A stretch of 64,000 nucleotides of DNA from an uncultured Leptolinea sp. (GTDB lineage: Bacteria; Chloroflexota; Anaerolineae; Anaerolineales; Anaerolineaceae), in the NCBI GenBank assembly GCA_903828565.1, contig CAIKMQ010000046.1:1-64000 (forward strand), in the 5' to 3' direction. Positions 12,689 to 34,646 of this stretch are shown in pieces. A program made the position numbers and the translations under genes. Positions within the stretch are counted from its first letter, which is position 1, and the number at the start of each line of letters is the position of its first letter. The notes beneath the pieces are model-generated. The model did no database searches. It saw nothing but the letters and a program-made list of their open reading frames with translations, and was not told the origin of the DNA.

Positions 12689-13915
12689 ATGCAAAGATCT
12701 TCATCGCTTCAACGGATTTTCTCCTCCTTCCAACACCAGAATTACCGCCTGTGGTTTGGCGGTCAACTGGTGTCGCTGGTGGGCACCTGGATGCAATCTA
12801 CAGCCCAGGGATACCTCATTTACACGCTGACGGGATCCACAGCCTACCTCGGGTATATCTCGATCGCTGCCGGGATACCCACCTGGATCTTCATGATGTA
12901 CGGCGGCGTGATCGCAGACCGCATCCCAAGGCGCAATCTCATTATGATCACCCAGGCAGCCATGATGTTTCTGGCTTTTGCCCTGGCAACGCTGGTATTC
13001 ACGAACACCATCCAACCCTGGCACATTCTGGTTCTGGCCTTTTTATTGGGGATCGCCAACGCATTTGATGCCCCGACCCGCCAATCTTTCGTGCTTGAAT
13101 TGGTTGGCCGGGAAGACATGACGAACGCCATCGCGCTCAACGGAGCGATGTTCAACCTGGGGATCATCATCGGTCCTTCTATCGCAGGCATCACCTACGC
13201 TGCTATCGGGCCAGCGTGGTGCTTTCTTATCAATGGGATATCTTTCATTGCGGTGCTGATAGCGCTGGGCTTGATGAAGATCACCTATGTGCCGGAAAGG
13301 TCGCCCTCCCGTAATGTGATGGAGGAGCTGAAGACCGGTATTCAGTATGTCGCGCAAAACCGCGAAGTTCGTTCGTTGATCACTAACCTCGGGCTGATGT
13401 CCATTTTTGGTTTTGGTGTGGTCGCGCTCATCCCTGCATGGGCCGTTGAGGTACTGCATGGGGATGTTCGGGTGAACGGGCTGCTGCTCACTGCCCGGGG
13501 TGTTGGCTCTGTAATCGCCACGCTGTGGATTGCCTCACGCGGAAACCGCCACGGCCGGGGGAAGATTTGGCAGCTGGGTAACCTGCTGCTGCCGGTCTTC
13601 TGGATCATCTTCTCCCTGATGACCGAACTTCCCTTTGCCTTGATGGCAATTGGCGTGGTCGGCTTGAGCTTTATTCTTTCAAACAACCTGTCTAATTCTA
13701 TTCTGCAGACAGCAGTACCAGATGCTTTACGCGGGCGTGTGATGGCAATCTATACCATGGTCTTTTTTGGCCTGACCCCAGTCGGTTCGCTGCTTGCCGG
13801 CCTGGCAGCTGAGAAATTCGGACTGCAAATGACCGTATTTGCCAGCGGATTGATCTTCCTGGTGATCGCGCTCTATACATTCTTCAGATATCCCTATCTT
13901 CGAAAAATGGATTGA
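12689..13915 (+). CDS. MFS transporter, EntS/MFS_3-like
   Basis: 408 residues, about 12 membrane segments. The start NYRLWFGGQLVSLVGTWMQS and the loop ADRIPRRNLI are typical of the enterobactin-exporter-like MFS_3 family, as is the late motif ALRGRVMAIYTMVFFGLTPVGSL. It is probably a drug or metabolite efflux pump of the inner membrane; the substrate is unknown. The gene stands between the AlkP-like gene and the YdjC deacetylase in the same direction, with short gaps. Confidence 0.88.
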   Translation: MQRSSSLQRIFSSFQHQNYRLWFGGQLVSLVGTWMQSTAQGYLIYTLTGSTAYLGYISIAAGIPTWIFMMYGGVIADRIPRRNLIMITQAAMMFLAFALATLVFTNTIQPWHILVLAFLLGIANAFDAPTRQSFVLELVGREDMTNAIALNGAMFNLGIIIGPSIAGITYAAIGPAWCFLINGISFIAVLIALGLMKITYVPERSPSRNVMEELKTGIQYVAQNREVRSLITNLGLMSIFGFGVVALIPAWAVEVLHGDVRVNGLLLTARGVGSVIATLWIASRGNRHGRGKIWQLGNLLLPVFWIIFSLMTELPFALMAIGVVGLSFILSNNLSNSILQTAVPDALRGRVMAIYTMVFFGLTPVGSLLAGLAAEKFGLQMTVFASGLIFLVIALYTFFRYPYLRKMD

Positions 13916-24624: not shown

Positions 24625-26151
24625 CTACCCACAACAGTTAGCGGAGCTGCAACCGCAGTTTCTGGATGGATTTTCTTCCGTCACGTTTTTGGCCGAGGAA
24701 ATAGGTTTCTGGGCAGAAACAATGATACTGTAAACCGAAACGCCCGATGTTTCGCCCATGCTGGTACTGCGACGCATCAAAGTATTCTGGAAACCTGCCT
24801 GAGAGATCAGATCCAGGTATTCCTGTTCGGGAAGAGCTCCAGATACACACTCAGCCCAGCTTGAGGAGCTTTGCCGGATTTCAAAAGGAAGGGACCCGAA
24901 TGTAACCATATCGCTGACTTCCAACCGGCCTCCGGGCTTTAGAACACGGAAAGCCTCCCGAAAAACAAGCCCTTTATCCTCAGAGAGGTTGATCACACAG
25001 TTTGAGATTATCACATCCACGCTCTCGTCATGCATTGGCAACTCTTCTGCATATCCGTGGCGAAACTCCACATTCTGGATGTTGTTTTTTATGGCGGTTG
25101 CTTTCGCCCGATCCAACATAGCTGGAGTCATATCCACACCGATCACATGGCCACCCGACCCGACCGTATCTGCAGCCAGAAATGCATCCAAACCACCACC
25201 GCTGCCAATATCCAGAACGATGTCACCCGGCTTCAAGTTTGCCATCGCGATTGGATTCCCGCAGCCAAGAGAACTATCCGCTGCTTCACCTGGAACGGAG
25301 GATAACTCTTCCTGAGAATATCCGGTTGAAAAAGTCACATCCGTAAATTCTTTCTCGCCGCAACAATTAGAAGAGTTTTCCGAACTCGTACAAAAACATG
25401 TATTTTTACTGTCTGTGCCCGCCTGGCAACACCCTGCGGATGGTTCGGCTGTTGCGATGGCAGAGTAGTTTTCTTGGACTGATGCGCGCATGGTTACCTT
25501 ACGGGTACCAATCGCAACGAAAACGCTGATCCTTTCTTCATGTTCCCGCTGACCTGATTTAGAAATTGTGGAAGATACGGCACAGCATTTCTCGCCGGTT
25601 CCATTAACGATTACATTCACCAAATCTGAATCTTGATACCATATACGCAGTTGATCACGTTTGAATCCCAGCCAGATATCTGCCATATCGTTCTTCATCC
25701 AGGCATTGGGATGCTCATCCATATCGGTAATGACCAGCCTGCCGCCTGGACGCAGTACCCGCGCCATTTCGCGTATCGCTGCTGCCGGTTCCAGGGTGTG
25801 GTGAAGATACATATTTGCAAAGACAGCATCCAAGCTTCCATCCGGGAAAGGCAGATCGGCTCCATCCGCTATAAAATACTGGATGTTCCCAAATGCAGAC
25901 AGGTTCTTTTTTGCTACCTCAAGCATGGCTGCTGAGTTGTCCACAACATTAACCTGCTTCACTAAGGCCGCGATCCCTGCAGCCACATACCCGGTTCCAG
26001 AGCCTACATCAGCCACAACCATTTCGGGGCGTAAGTATGCCTTTGAAATAGCTGCTTCCCGTATTTGTTTCCCAAAGTATCCGGCACTAATCTGATCCCA
26101 GTCATTTGCCACCTGATCAAAATAATCTGCTGATGCTTGCGTTGTGGTCAT
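24625..26151 (-). CDS. arsM: ArsM arsenite methyltransferase fused to an N-terminal SAM methyltransferase
   Basis: 508 residues with two SAM domains. The N-terminal domain (about 1-185) is UbiE-like (DVGSGTG at 48-54, RVLRPGGRLVITDMD). The C-terminal half (about 221-482) begins like a free-standing ArsM and has DIGSGGG at 314-320 and the three Cys typical of ArsM: C297 (SLGCGNP), C385 (SNCVINL) and C435 (WAECVSG). The linker and tail are Cys-rich (CC at 241-242, CFC at 252-254, CC at 263-264, and the end CGCSSANCCG), which suggests As(III) capture. ArsM methylates As(III) to volatile or less-bound species. ATG 26151 follows CAGGAGGTACTCGA. It sits 75 bp behind arsR. Confidence 0.9.
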   Translation of the reverse strand: MTTTQASADYFDQVANDWDQISAGYFGKQIREAAISKAYLRPEMVVADVGSGTGYVAAGIAALVKQVNVVDNSAAMLEVAKKNLSAFGNIQYFIADGADLPFPDGSLDAVFANMYLHHTLEPAAAIREMARVLRPGGRLVITDMDEHPNAWMKNDMADIWLGFKRDQLRIWYQDSDLVNVIVNGTGEKCCAVSSTISKSGQREHEERISVFVAIGTRKVTMRASVQENYSAIATAEPSAGCCQAGTDSKNTCFCTSSENSSNCCGEKEFTDVTFSTGYSQEELSSVPGEAADSSLGCGNPIAMANLKPGDIVLDIGSGGGLDAFLAADTVGSGGHVIGVDMTPAMLDRAKATAIKNNIQNVEFRHGYAEELPMHDESVDVIISNCVINLSEDKGLVFREAFRVLKPGGRLEVSDMVTFGSLPFEIRQSSSSWAECVSGALPEQEYLDLISQAGFQNTLMRRSTSMGETSGVSVYSIIVSAQKPISSAKNVTEENPSRNCGCSSANCCG

Positions 26152-26226: not shown

Positions 26227-26580
26227 TTATTCACAGCATGTGGTGTTATCTGGATCTACCTGTGAATTACAGCAATTCGGCAGCCAGCATTCAATCTGCT
26301 CCTTTAGGAATTGCACACCTTGCCGACTGATGCAGTAGCAGGTTGCTGGCCCTTCGATTTCTCCTTCGATCAGGCCAGCTTCGCGTAACACCTTCAAATG
26401 TTGGCTGACAGTAGATTGTGCCAGAGCAGTAAATTCAACGATCTCTCCGGTGATGCAAACTTGCCTGGCAGCCAGGTACTTCATGATTTGAAAGCGAATG
26501 GGGTTGCCAAGGGCCTTCAACATCGCCGCGACGCGGAGCTCATTCTGATCAAGTTCATCTATATCTGGTACTGGATTCAT
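26227..26580 (-). CDS. arsR: ArsR/SmtB-family arsenic-responsive repressor
   Basis: 117 residues. A winged helix (LKALGNPIRFQIMKYLAA, then the recognition helix QSTVSQHLKVLREAGLI at about 55-71). Potential As(III) ligands are C42, C81, C83, C98, the pair C103-C104 and the terminal pair C115-C116. The exact sensor triad cannot be fixed by eye. ATG 26580 follows AGAGGT. A perfect palindrome just upstream is the likely operator; derepression by arsenite would then express arsR and arsM together. Confidence 0.93.
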   Translation of the reverse strand: MNPVPDIDELDQNELRVAAMLKALGNPIRFQIMKYLAARQVCITGEIVEFTALAQSTVSQHLKVLREAGLIEGEIEGPATCYCISRQGVQFLKEQIECWLPNCCNSQVDPDNTTCCE

Positions 26581-30523: not shown

Positions 30524-32224
30524 TTACTTCACAACGGGTAGTTCAGCAGCGACCCAGGCGCCCATGCCACCGGCAAGGTTGGTCACTTCAGTGTAGCCAT
30601 TCATACGCAACGCTTCCAAAGCCATTGCACCTCGATGACCGGAACCGCAGACGACTACGATCTTTGCAGTCTTATCCTGTGGAAGTTCGCCGAGGCGAGC
30701 CCAGAGTTCTACCACGGGGATATTCACTGCGCCTTCGATCATACCGCCATCCGTTACCTCTTTGGCTGTGCGCAGATCTACGATGAAAGGTTTTTCAGCT
30801 TCACCCAGCAACAGGTTCAAGTCCAGAGCTTTGACGGCATAGAAACCTTCAGGCAGGCTTGACAGGAAAGCGTCCAGAGCAGCCAGACGAGTTGCATCCA
30901 CAACTGGTGCTGTGCCAGCAGGTAATGCAGTGGCTTCACCGGCTTCGACAGCAAACTCAGCTTTCTTCCAGGCGTTCATACCACCGCCCAGATTGCGGAC
31001 GTCGGTATAGCCCAGCAGGCGCAATGCTGCGGTTGCGAGCGCACCACGATGGCCAGAAACACAGTAGATGACAATCGGTTGAGCCTGATCGGGGAGTTTA
31101 TCCAGGTTCTGCAGCAAGCTGCGGACAGGTAAATTGATGGCACCAGAGAGATGGCCGTCAGCAAATTCGGTAGCTTCGCGAACATCCACCAGGAGCGGTG
31201 TCTTTTCTACAAGCTCTGCATTGAGATTTGCAGCAGATACAGCATAGTACCCTTCAGGGAGGGAGGTGAGGAATTCGCCCCAGACTGCGTTCCAATCGAC
31301 GTATCCGACGATGGGGAATTGTGCAGCTTTCCAACCATTAATTCCACCAGCTAAGTTCTTAACATTGGTGTAACCAAGCAACTGCAGGCCCATCTGAGCA
31401 ACAGCGCCACGGTGGCCGGAAACACAGTAGATGACGATCGGTTGATCCTTGGCAGGGAGTTTATCGAGTGAAGCAAAGAGCTCCTGCAGCGGAACGTTGA
31501 TGGCACCTTCGATCCGGCCATTTTTATTGTATTCATCCGCGGTACGAATATCCACCAGGGTCGGGGCACTCTCAGCGATCGCAGTATTCAATGAATCCGC
31601 TTTGATGGTGCCGAAACCTTCCGGCAGATTGGACATGTAATCATTCAGCAGGGTATAGAGAGCCTGATCCGCAATGATCGGGGCAGTACCGGCGACGGGA
31701 GCGGCAGGAACAGAACCTGTGACAACAGGGAATTCGGCTTTCTTCCATCCACCCAGGCCGCCTGCAAGATTACGGACATTGGTGTATCCCAACTGGCGCA
31801 GAGCTGCCATGGTGTAAGCGCCACGATGGCCGGAAGCGCAGTATACGACAATGGCGTCATCCAAACCGGGAAGCTTATCCAGGTTCTTCAGGACATCGCG
31901 AACGGGAATGTTGACAGCCCCATCAATGTAGCCATCGGTTTCCAACTCGGCAGCTTGGCGCACATCCAACAAGAAAGGTGCGTTTTCCACCAATTCGGTA
32001 TTCAGATTGGCAACAGAGATGGTTCCATAGCCCTTATCTGCCGGGATGGAGGCTACCAGTGAAGACCACAGTGCCTGTACATCTGGCGCGGGTGCCTCTA
32101 CTACCGGCTCGGCAGTCGCTTCTACTACTGGAGCTTCCACCACCGGTGCTGCAGCCGGCGCGCATGCGCCAAGCAACAGGCTGAACAAGAGGACGAGCAA
32201 TACTGCTAACGATAGTTTTTTCAT
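30524..32224 (-). CDS. Lipoprotein with four tandem rhodanese domains
   Basis: 566 residues, ATG 32224 behind AAAAGGAGAGAAA. Lipobox LGAC (Cys21), then an Ala/Pro/Val/Glu linker. Four rhodanese domains of about 120-138 residues follow; each keeps its catalytic Cys in a CxSGHRGA loop: C129, C267, C388 and C526. Each also has the LNxxL and AxNIP/NVP strand motifs and a GWK or AWK end. The domains are similar to one another, so they arose by internal duplication. Rhodaneses carry sulfane sulfur as a Cys persulfide; here the sites would face outside the membrane. The multihaem cytochrome ORF ends 25 bp upstream, implying one operon. Confidence 0.93.
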   Translation of the reverse strand: MKKLSLAVLLVLLFSLLLGACAPAAAPVVEAPVVEATAEPVVEAPAPDVQALWSSLVASIPADKGYGTISVANLNTELVENAPFLLDVRQAAELETDGYIDGAVNIPVRDVLKNLDKLPGLDDAIVVYCASGHRGAYTMAALRQLGYTNVRNLAGGLGGWKKAEFPVVTGSVPAAPVAGTAPIIADQALYTLLNDYMSNLPEGFGTIKADSLNTAIAESAPTLVDIRTADEYNKNGRIEGAINVPLQELFASLDKLPAKDQPIVIYCVSGHRGAVAQMGLQLLGYTNVKNLAGGINGWKAAQFPIVGYVDWNAVWGEFLTSLPEGYYAVSAANLNAELVEKTPLLVDVREATEFADGHLSGAINLPVRSLLQNLDKLPDQAQPIVIYCVSGHRGALATAALRLLGYTDVRNLGGGMNAWKKAEFAVEAGEATALPAGTAPVVDATRLAALDAFLSSLPEGFYAVKALDLNLLLGEAEKPFIVDLRTAKEVTDGGMIEGAVNIPVVELWARLGELPQDKTAKIVVVCGSGHRGAMALEALRMNGYTEVTNLAGGMGAWVAAELPVVK

Positions 32225-32249
32225 TTTCTCTCCTTTTAATATTCCCGAT

Positions 32250-33596
32250 CTATTCAGGAATTGATTCCACTATCACATCTTTGTTGGCATCCAATTCTTC
32301 CGGTTTTACTTTATCTACAGTCAGGAAGAGGTCCGAATTACCATGGCACGCATCGCAGCTTTGATTCTGGGGTGTGACTCGCTGAATATTGTGCGGAGTG
32401 GCGTATGCCCAAGTTGCCACAAGGTCGAAATTTGGCAGCAGATCTTCCCCATAGAACGAATAACTATCCGGGGCAATGGGTATATGTCGGACAGTCACAT
32501 ACTCATACGGTCTCTCTTCACTTTGGATTGGATTGCGCCCAATATAGAAGCCGAGGTAGTGCGCATCGGTGGTATAGAATGGATTCCCGGTTTTACTGCT
32601 GATCTCTACATGGCAGTTGTCACAACTGCTGTATTCGATGGAGTGGCATACCTGGCATTGAACTTTGTCTTGATGGATGGAGTGCTGTGCTACAGTATCA
32701 CCTGCAGCTCCAATTTCCGCATGGCAGCCACGGCAGGATGGTTCCTGGGAAGCGGTGTAGCGGGTATTCCCTGTATCGACCGAACTAGCATGCAAAGCCG
32801 ATCCGGTATGGCAAGAAACACAATTCATCCGCGCAATCCTGAAGTGTACATCTCCGGGGATCTCTTCGCTGTTCTTACCAAGATACTCGTTACCCACCCG
32901 GCTTCCGTGGCAGGCAGTACAAGTTCGCGTCATGGGTGGAGTTTCTACAAATTCATGGCCGCTCAAGAAGCCACCACCTACAGAATCCGGTTGGCTGATA
33001 TGGCAATCTCCACAGGATGTATGGCAGGAGGAGCAGTGATTACCAAAAGCTTCATCCAGGGCAGGATGGTTTTCTGGAATTGAGCGGCTATACATGGAAA
33101 CCTTGTAACCGGACAGGGTACTATGCAATGACTCCTGCGATGAATTCACAACATCCGCATGGCAGGTAGCGCAATAGGCTGCAGCATCATCACTTGGATG
33201 TGTCACCAAACCGGTGTGAGCAGTTTCTTTATCTGGTGACTGCTCACCCCCATGGCATGAAATGCACGAGACACTCCCATGAGAAGAGATTAAGAAATTC
33301 TCACTGACCAATACTTTTTCCCAGGGCTCCAACGGAGCCACATCGCCCCCTCAGCCAGTACCTTCACTTTCCTTTACCACCACCTCCTCCGGTTTCGCTG
33401 TGTCGATCAGCTTGCTTTTGTCAGTGTGACATTCAACGCACTGGTCAACCGTAGAACTTTCAGATATCACTACCCCGGTTGCTGATGACGCTGGCTGACC
33501 TTCTGCCTCCTTATCATCAACCGGGACTGATGCAGGAGAACACGCTGCCAGGATGCACAGGGTGATCATCATTGGAATAAATATGGATCTTCTCAT
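32250..33596 (-). pseudogene. Multihaem c-type cytochrome lipoprotein interrupted by one in-frame UGA
   Basis: One continuous frame of 449 codons with a single internal TGA at 33351-33353. The first part (33351-33596, 81 residues, ATG behind GGGAGAGTGA) has a lipoprotein signal (LAAC, Cys19) and one haem site CVECH. The second part (to 32250) has ten more CxxCH sites: CISCH, CATCH, CSSCH, CGDCH, CTACH, CVSCH, CRGCH, CQVCH, CDNCH and CDACH. The second part has no signal of its own, yet cytochrome c maturation needs export. The local sequence reads GTG-stop-GGDVAPLEPW; TGG (Trp) to TGA is the simplest origin. Readthrough, selenocysteine or a sequencing error are alternatives. The haem-site scaffold is otherwise undamaged. 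Confidence 0.85.
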
Positions 33597-33679
33597 TCAC
33601 TCTCCCAAGTTTTGTCTCTTACTTTTCAATTGTAGGCATCGCAGATAAATGGGATAGTGACAAACATCATAATCAATTA

Positions 33680-33706
33680 TTGGACTTACTTATCATGATT
33701 TATAAT
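33680..33706 (+). promoter_or_regulatory. Promoter of the LysR gene in the divergent intergenic region
   Basis: TTGGAC (33680-33685), a 15-bp spacer and TATAAT (33701-33706). The AT-rich 135-bp gap between the LysR and cytochrome genes is where a LysR regulator would be expected to bind. A candidate T-N11-A stretch lies at about 33690-33705. Confidence 0.5.
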
Positions 33707-33731
33707 AATTACTTATATATGGAGGATTGCC

Positions 33732-34646
33732 ATGCTCGATCTACATCAATTGGAAGTATTCATCACTGCAGCTGAACTGCTTAATTTCTCTCAAGCCGGC
33801 TCCCGCCTGCACATCAGCCAGCCTAGTGTGACCCAGCACATCCAAAGCCTTGAATCGCAACTCGGGAATCCCTTATTCATCCGCCAGGGAAAAAAGTTGG
33901 CACTGACCGAGGCTGGCTCCCTGCTTTTACCTATTGCCCGCAGACTGGTATTATCATCCATGCGAGCCGAAGAAACGCTCGAGTCATTAACTACGGAAGT
34001 TTCAGGGCACCTGCATGTTGGATGCAGTACCACACCTGGGAAATATCGCCTCCCCCGGCTGATGGCTGACTTCATGCGGGCAAACCCGCATGTTCAGGCT
34101 ACCTGTTCAGTCACTTCCCGCAGCCAGGTGCTGCGCCTGTTGGAAAAAGGCAGCGTGGATTTCGCTTTCACATCCAGCACTCGCGAATTTAACCAGTACA
34201 CGGAGTTTAAAAAGTTTTTATCTGACCCGGTATTATTGATCGTCCACCCGAACCATCCTTGGGCGACACTCGGTCAGATACAGCTGGAAGATTTGCGCAC
34301 AGAGCGTTTTATTATGCGGGAAGATAGTTCAGGGACTTATGAAGTCACCCGAACTTCACTGGCACAAGCAGGTTTCAATATTCATGATCTACAAGTCATT
34401 CTCACTCTGGGAAACTCAGAAGCCATAGCCATGGCGGTTATGCAGCAAATTGGTGTGGGATTTATATCTCAAAGCGTGGTACAGAACTTTATTTGCGGTC
34501 GGGTGATACCGATCCAAATGGAAGGGATACAGATCACCCAGGAGATCTACTTCTGTCGCAATAAACTGCACACCATGGGAAACGCCCAGAGCAAATTCTG
34601 GTCGTTCATCCTCAGTCAGGCGGAAGCTTCAGAACCGATCCATTAA
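33732..34646 (+). CDS. LysR-family transcriptional regulator
   Basis: 304 residues. N-terminal winged HTH (LDLHQLEVFITAAELLNFSQ, then ISQPSVTQHIQSLESQLG), and an effector-binding domain from about 90 (periplasmic-binding-protein fold, as in CysB/CbbR). ATG 33732 follows GGAGG. It is divergent from the cytochrome-rhodanese operon, the classical arrangement for a LysR regulator and its target. Its effector is unknown; a sulfur compound would fit the target genes but is inference. Its stop overlaps the convergent PII-like gene by 4 bp. Confidence 0.92.
   Translation: MLDLHQLEVFITAAELLNFSQAGSRLHISQPSVTQHIQSLESQLGNPLFIRQGKKLALTEAGSLLLPIARRLVLSSMRAEETLESLTTEVSGHLHVGCSTTPGKYRLPRLMADFMRANPHVQATCSVTSRSQVLRLLEKGSVDFAFTSSTREFNQYTEFKKFLSDPVLLIVHPNHPWATLGQIQLEDLRTERFIMREDSSGTYEVTRTSLAQAGFNIHDLQVILTLGNSEAIAMAVMQQIGVGFISQSVVQNFICGRVIPIQMEGIQITQEIYFCRNKLHTMGNAQSKFWSFILSQAEASEPIH

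Follow-up and report, generated by a model that had tools for sequence, protein, structure and literature searches.

A conserved in-frame UGA as a predicted selenocysteine codon in an undecahaem c-type cytochrome gene linked to a rhodanese in at least three bacterial phyla

The window analysed here is a stretch of 64,000 nt from an uncultured Leptolinea sp. (contig CAIKMQ010000046.1, positions 1 to 64,000), and on its minus strand (32250..33596) it carries a cytochrome gene with a single in-frame UGA at 33351-33353. This UGA is very probably read as selenocysteine (Sec). The gene would then most likely encode an undecahaem c-type cytochrome that contains Sec, in this case a lipoprotein of 448 aa (TAG included in the coordinates) with Sec as residue 82. 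Comparison supports this prediction by the conservation of the UGA, by a conserved and covarying hairpin, by a rhodanese partner and its fusions, and by the Sec machinery in the genome. The best explanation of the whole, held with high confidence, is that a SECIS element directs Sec into position 82 of an undecahaem lipoprotein, which is exported and would act in rhodanese-linked reduction of sulfur species. The homologues apparently form a widespread, uncatalogued selenoprotein family present in at least three phyla. Gene callers that treat UGA as a stop split each of these genes into two broken pieces and thereby hide the signal and the first haem.

Anatomy of the cytochrome gene

Translation begins at ATG 33594-33596 on the minus strand and opens MRRSIFIPMMITLCILAAC... 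The segment located 5′ of the UGA encodes a signal peptide with the lipobox LAAC (33537..33596, minus strand; judged by eye from the sequence, not with a predictor) and one CxxCH motif (haem motif 1). Past the TGA, which lies in the motif G-U-G-G, the frame continues through ten further CxxCH motifs (2-11) to the TAG at 32250-32252. Two open reading frames in one frame, split only by this TGA, had been described in an earlier reading made from the sequence alone (the sequence-only reading), and this arrangement was confirmed. With multiple CxxCH motifs (11 haem sites) and an export signal, the latter recognised by eye, the protein shows the features by which a multihaem c-type cytochrome is defined. 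A GTG at 33341-33339 and a GAGGGGG-like site are both located 3′ of the UGA. Elsewhere in the window UGA serves as an ordinary stop, as had been stated before: 15 of 47 mechanically picked ORFs (≥150 aa) end in TGA, including the one at 12689-13915.

The previously noted hairpin GGCTCC-GUU-GGAGCC (33325..33339, minus strand) begins 11 nt past the UGA and consists of a 6-bp stem and a 3-nt loop starting with G, with a free energy of -9.1 kcal/mol; the loop lies 17 nt past the UGA. These values are within the limits for bacterial SECIS (bSECIS) elements given in the available part of a recent catalogue, namely a loop of 3-9 nt with G in the first two positions, a stem of 4-16 bp, a distance of 16-37 nt between UGA and loop, and a minimum free energy of at most -7.5 (PMC13188914). 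Folded alone, the window hairpin is not unusual (z +0.53) and a competing hairpin appears in the centroid, so that the case stands on comparison and not on a single fold. An Rfam search of 32200-33800 returned sub-threshold matches only.

Conservation of the UGA and of the hairpin

The codon at the site was read at 70 homologous loci from three phyla without choosing for TGA. TGA was found at 67 loci and TAC at one, while two (L120 and L122) do not extend to the site; among the 68 site-spanning loci, window included, TAA, TAG, Trp and Cys codons were all absent. An alignment of homologues at this position had been proposed in the sequence-only reading, which had considered Trp, Cys/Sec or a stop. 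The first four relatives, from metagenome-assembled genomes labelled Anaerolineae, Anaerolineaceae, Chloroflexi and, in one case, "bacterium", have TGA at the same place within the context E-S-x-G-x-G-U-G-G-x-V-x-x-L-E-x-W-E-(K/R). Matches at E 0.001 were obtained in 12 of 41 close genomes, nine of them strong. Wider searches, in which frames were read through and any stop was counted, gave matches in 13 of 400 Chloroflexota genomes, 12 of which have a copy with one TGA, and in 47 of 395 genomes of Desulfobacterota (which we take to be the GTDB phylum holding the Geobacter genome), with a one-TGA copy in 45. In the third phylum, that of locus L004, 10 of 39 genomes matched and all ten have a one-TGA copy. 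The name Chloroflexota follows the titles under which close homologues are recorded, and the third phylum is distinguished by its size alone. The Desulfobacterota matches correspond to 53 rows, of which 49 contain a single TGA and four contain none; 40 of these loci were fetched. No relative was found in viral contigs, nor in a search of plasmids.

The single TAC (Tyr) occurs in G812, where the gene runs uninterrupted over 717 aa and also encodes rhodanese-like domains; this genome still has selB. A candidate Cys variant in G058 was rejected, as it is a paralogue lacking Sec together with the whole segment around it.

In 22 chosen diverse rows covering the three phyla, G81, U82 and the 11 haem sites are invariant, the last haem site being CxxxCH in some of these rows. 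After the UGA, G84 is invariant and G83 is conserved in more than 90% (29 rows), and GUAG or GUGV replaces GUGG in parts of the family. A divergent Desulfobacterota subfamily (L116-L118, L121 and L123-L130) carries the motif GUAG(A/P/S)PP and different SECIS stems; a rhodanese match is present at 11 of its 12 loci, and the remaining one, L126, ends just past the cytochrome gene. A tree of 65 rows, from which G030 was left out as from alignment A2, showed the phyla mildly mixed (four changes against a minimum of two) on long branches, and no history was drawn from it.

A hairpin conforming to the bSECIS limits (at most -7.5 kcal/mol) was present in 53 of 66 copies, which had been chosen by scripts that sought TGA, compared with 670 of 22036 control windows (3.0%) of the same genes; the other 13 copies fell short of -7.5 kcal/mol in this contiguous-stem test. 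Locus L100, whose contig ends close 5′ of the UGA, was counted in the 70-locus codon reading and is absent from the 66-copy set. In alignment A1, which contains 30 copies over 48 nt from the UGA, 85.8% of the stem cells are paired, against 40.4-47.9% with the partner slid, and six of the eight stem pairs show double changes on both sides. At column pair 16/28, for example, 16 copies have G-C and the other 14 have C-G. The encoded residues track the RNA stem, reading A-P-L-E-P, P-P-L-E-A or P-P-L-E-G. Synonymous identity, analysed without G030 (gene cut off by the end of its contig) and G050a (uncertain start), reached 0.98 at codons +4 to +8 in 18 Chloroflexota copies, the highest of 211 five-codon windows (mean 0.457). 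In ten copies of the third phylum, where several stems are used, the window from +4 ranked fifth of 167 (0.54, mean 0.416), a weak signal, and the loop is shifted by 3 nt in four third-phylum copies. RNAalifold applied to all 30 rows recovered only five of the eight pairs. Judged from this covariation and conservation, the hairpin is very probably a bacterial SECIS element.

Selenocysteine machinery and other readings of the UGA

The genome of the window encodes all four components by which a selenoprotein producer is recognised, tRNA-Sec, SelA, SelB and SelD, and the search for selA, selB and selC (tRNA-Sec) proposed in the sequence-only reading thus returned each of them. The tRNA-Sec match reached 70.8 bits (cut-off 47; next match 45.5) and ARAGORN likewise reported a tRNA-SeC with anticodon TCA. 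SelA scored 515.5 bits, SelB 331 bits, which is above its cut-off, and SelD 354 bits. The selD gene (G000:C9:15133-16065, locus L094) itself contains an in-frame TGA in ...SNCAG-U-ASKL and is of the Sec type, with Sec at what we take to be the active-site position; it is an independent sign that UGA is decoded as Sec in this genome. In every part of the decoding system and in the geometry of the SECIS, the case agrees with bacterial selenoproteins in general.

Across genomes, selB exceeded the cut-off in 20 of 21 surveyed, among them G058, which has no Sec copy, and in 19 of 20 carriers of the cytochrome, the exception being G010 with selB in pieces. Among Desulfobacterota, selB was found in 352 of 395 genomes (44 of the 47 carriers, 308 of the 348 non-carriers) and is therefore too common for the carrier comparison to be informative; the three of 47 carriers without selB at E 1e-75 (G506, G739 and G759) are all in many contigs. 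Within the 41 closest genomes, a tRNA-Sec match above 50 bits was obtained in 27, which include all nine strong carriers (hypergeometric ~0.013, a hand estimate in which relatedness is not corrected for).

These observations bear on three readings in which the UGA is not a Sec codon. One might suspect that the cytochrome gene is intact apart from a nonsense mutation or an error of sequencing, given that UGA is one base from TGG and that the genome is in 48 contigs, and the sequence-only reading had considered a very recent break, an error or a TGG to TGA change. A UGA conserved across three phyla is not a recent break, however, the same TGA recurs in nearly all loci from many assemblies with TGG in none, and the hairpin is kept with compensatory changes; the probability of this reading is practically negligible. 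Reinitiation at the GTG, which would yield a short monohaem lipoprotein followed by a decahaem protein, draws on the GAGGGGG-like site and GTG after the UGA, on the UGA in nearly every homologue and on retention of the GTG in 17 of 20 Chloroflexota copies. Beyond that phylum the GTG is kept in only one of ten third-phylum and 12 of 37 Desulfobacterota TGA copies, and the Chloroflexota GTG shares bases with the conserved stem. Moreover, no signal peptide was recognised by eye in the downstream part, whereas attachment of haem c requires the extracytoplasmic side; G84 and G83 are conserved although they would be untranslated; and in G812 one open frame runs through the site. The sequence-only reading had named homologues that always form two proteins, with a stop at this site, as a refuting outcome. 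The codon is indeed nearly always UGA, but in the loci read it is never TAA or TAG, the frame, the flanks and the covarying hairpin are kept, and reading of the UGA is not refuted. The two-protein arrangement is accordingly given a very small probability.

Programmed read-through with another amino acid, inserted by a near-cognate tRNA with the hairpin as stimulator, is a further reading. Known read-through sites have a structured element after the stop, and one is present here 3′ of the UGA. The complete Sec system with a Sec-type SelD and the bSECIS geometry in most copies argue against it, and we consider it highly unlikely. Selenocysteine, one of the options raised in the sequence-only reading, is by comparison strongly supported by the conserved UGA, the covarying hairpin and the Sec machinery. 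Cys homologues, which are a usual, non-obligatory support for a selenoprotein, are lacking in the 68 loci, where Tyr is the only alternative. The G-U-G-G motif within a multihaem cytochrome, without CxxU or UxxC, also differs from other bacterial selenoproteins.

Rhodanese partner, relation to known families and proposed function

Twenty-five nt past the cytochrome stop starts the gene of a four-domain rhodanese lipoprotein (30524..32224, minus strand), with Pfam PF00581 in four stretches and four CxSGHRG loops. The cytochrome has a rhodanese next to it or fused to it in 28 of 30 neighbourhoods and at 36 of 40 Desulfobacterota loci. Clustering accounted for 26 of the 30 neighbourhoods, 25 with the rhodanese directly downstream on the same strand and G159 with it upstream; the other two are G150, read by eye, and G050a, an in-frame upstream fusion. 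No rhodanese was found beside G050b, and the G030 contig ends at that place. All 36 Desulfobacterota matches are on the cytochrome strand, fusions included (G812, G474 and G717). It is highly probable that the rhodanese is the working partner of the Sec cytochrome. In the fusions L115 (G812:C82) and L120 (G474:C219) the first rhodanese domain lacks a Cys at the expected active-site position and has Asp instead, as seen by eye.

A divergent gene on the plus strand (33732..34646) encodes a LysR-type regulator according to Pfam, which may regulate the operon; its cluster is present in 16 of 30 neighbourhoods, in Chloroflexota only. In G031, G029 and G135 a divergent set contains a multihaem cytochrome and a 4Fe-4S protein, joined in G031 and G135 by an NrfD-like protein (Pfam assignments cover the proteins of G031). 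The region just upstream of the G409 cytochrome encodes a molybdopterin oxidoreductase together with a 4Fe-4S/DmsC protein. In these few relatives the neighbours belong to the quinone side of electron transfer; no quinone module was recognised beside the window gene itself.

Neither the window protein nor eight other members reached any NCBIfam cut-off; across the 29 A2 rows no NCBIfam model gave an E-value better than 8.9e-11 (cut-offs not applied row by row). A close parallel is ExtKL (NF040886), likewise a multihaem c-type cytochrome with one in-frame UGA. ExtKL has five haems with Sec after all of them, whereas the present protein has 11 haems with Sec between haems 1 and 2. The NF040886 model (cut-off 250 bits) gave no match to G000 at E 0.001 and scored 586 against Geobacter G473; BLASTP against ExtKL gave 26.6 bits. 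A profile comparison with ExtKL reached a probability of 84.7 (E 6.7e-6) and extended over just 143 columns, in which the Sec of the present family is aligned to a Cys of the ExtKL signal-peptide region. Some haem stretches may share a remote common origin with ExtKL.

The AlphaFold model has a pLDDT of 74.9, with the Sec loop (79-82) below 50. Its best structural match was octahaem tetrathionate reductase (OTR; 1sp3, Z 9.4, 274 residues, rmsd 5.0 Å), which we regard as weak; the structure tool cautions that a Z of this kind can reflect a common arrangement. Foldseek found no significant match in the PDB. The OTR family TIGR04315 is octahaem and the present one has 11 haems; the window protein had no match to it at E 0.1, and the best of the eight other members scored 30.5 bits against a cut-off of 375. 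Similarity to the DmsE and GSU2203 decahaem cytochromes (TIGR03508 and NF041028) was weak as well, with 30.1 and 24 bits far below the cut-offs of 192.2 and 325.

A 2026 catalogue covering 119 families of prokaryotic selenoproteins mentions, in its available part, two Sec multihaem cytochromes, ExtKL and a form of TIGR04315 listed as "GenBank annotated" whose Sec position is not given there, as well as a CXXCH-containing barrel protein (PMC13188914). A "cytochrome c family protein" appears in the accessible part of an older selenoprotein list (PMC9312934). The newer list, in the part available, seems to equate this protein with ExtKL; it may, with small likelihood, be the present family. No description of this family was found in the open-access PMC literature as far as its accessible passages extend. 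Word searches in PMC12013277 and PMC2398784 returned no mention of cytochromes.

On the gene anatomy, SelB with Sec-tRNA would read the hairpin and insert Sec at residue 82 of a protein that is predicted to be exported and loaded with haem. Located in the periplasm or on the cell surface, the rhodanese would bind sulfane sulfur (or selenium) in the form of a cysteine persulfide, and linkage in three phyla together with repeated fusion suggests that it feeds this sulfur to Sec. Sec could then attack the persulfide or accept its sulfur to form a selenylsulfide, and the haem chain would supply electrons, most likely from quinol, with release of sulfide. Overall, the protein would be a haem-wired sulfur-species reductase. 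NrfD/DmsC-type neighbours in a few relatives and the weak OTR resemblance point to reduction; the reverse direction, oxidation, is possible. From the neighbours, we infer sulfur chemistry as the function with roughly even confidence. More tentatively, the protein may be a haem-wired selenoenzyme of sulfur metabolism in which sulfane sulfur (or selenium) passes from the rhodanese to Sec, forming a selenylsulfide, and electrons run directly between this chalcogen and the eleven haems; within this reading, Sec perhaps ligates a haem iron in the resting state.

With Sec retained, the function could instead be selenite or tellurite reduction, to which the Geobacter Ext cluster is linked in the available part of PMC5877670. 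According to the same source, this cluster pairs ExtKL, whose gene was first numbered as two (gsu2937-gsu2936), with the rhodanese-like ExtH. A Sec pentahaem cytochrome sharing a cluster with a rhodanese-like protein speaks for this function, but the resemblance to ExtKL is confined to parts and no Ext porin was recognised beside the window gene, so that this function is rather unlikely. Should the rhodanese-linked Sec cytochrome be confirmed, it would be a second pairing of this kind beside ExtH/ExtKL and would tie selenium use to extracytoplasmic electron transfer and rhodanese chemistry. With motif, partner and likely regulator defined, it can now be tested what Sec does in a multihaem cytochrome.

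Some further genes were observed near the cytochrome genes or within the window. In G035 the gene of a protein with a VKOR domain and a thioredoxin-like CGHC motif (L068:6042-7238) is divergent from the cytochrome gene, and its cluster also adjoins the cytochrome gene in G150. In the window, a 508-aa protein (24625-26151, minus strand) appears by eye to consist of two methyltransferase-like halves, the second of which resembles arsenite methyltransferases and has a Cys-rich tail, and beside it a small ArsR-like regulator is encoded at 26227-26580 on the minus strand.
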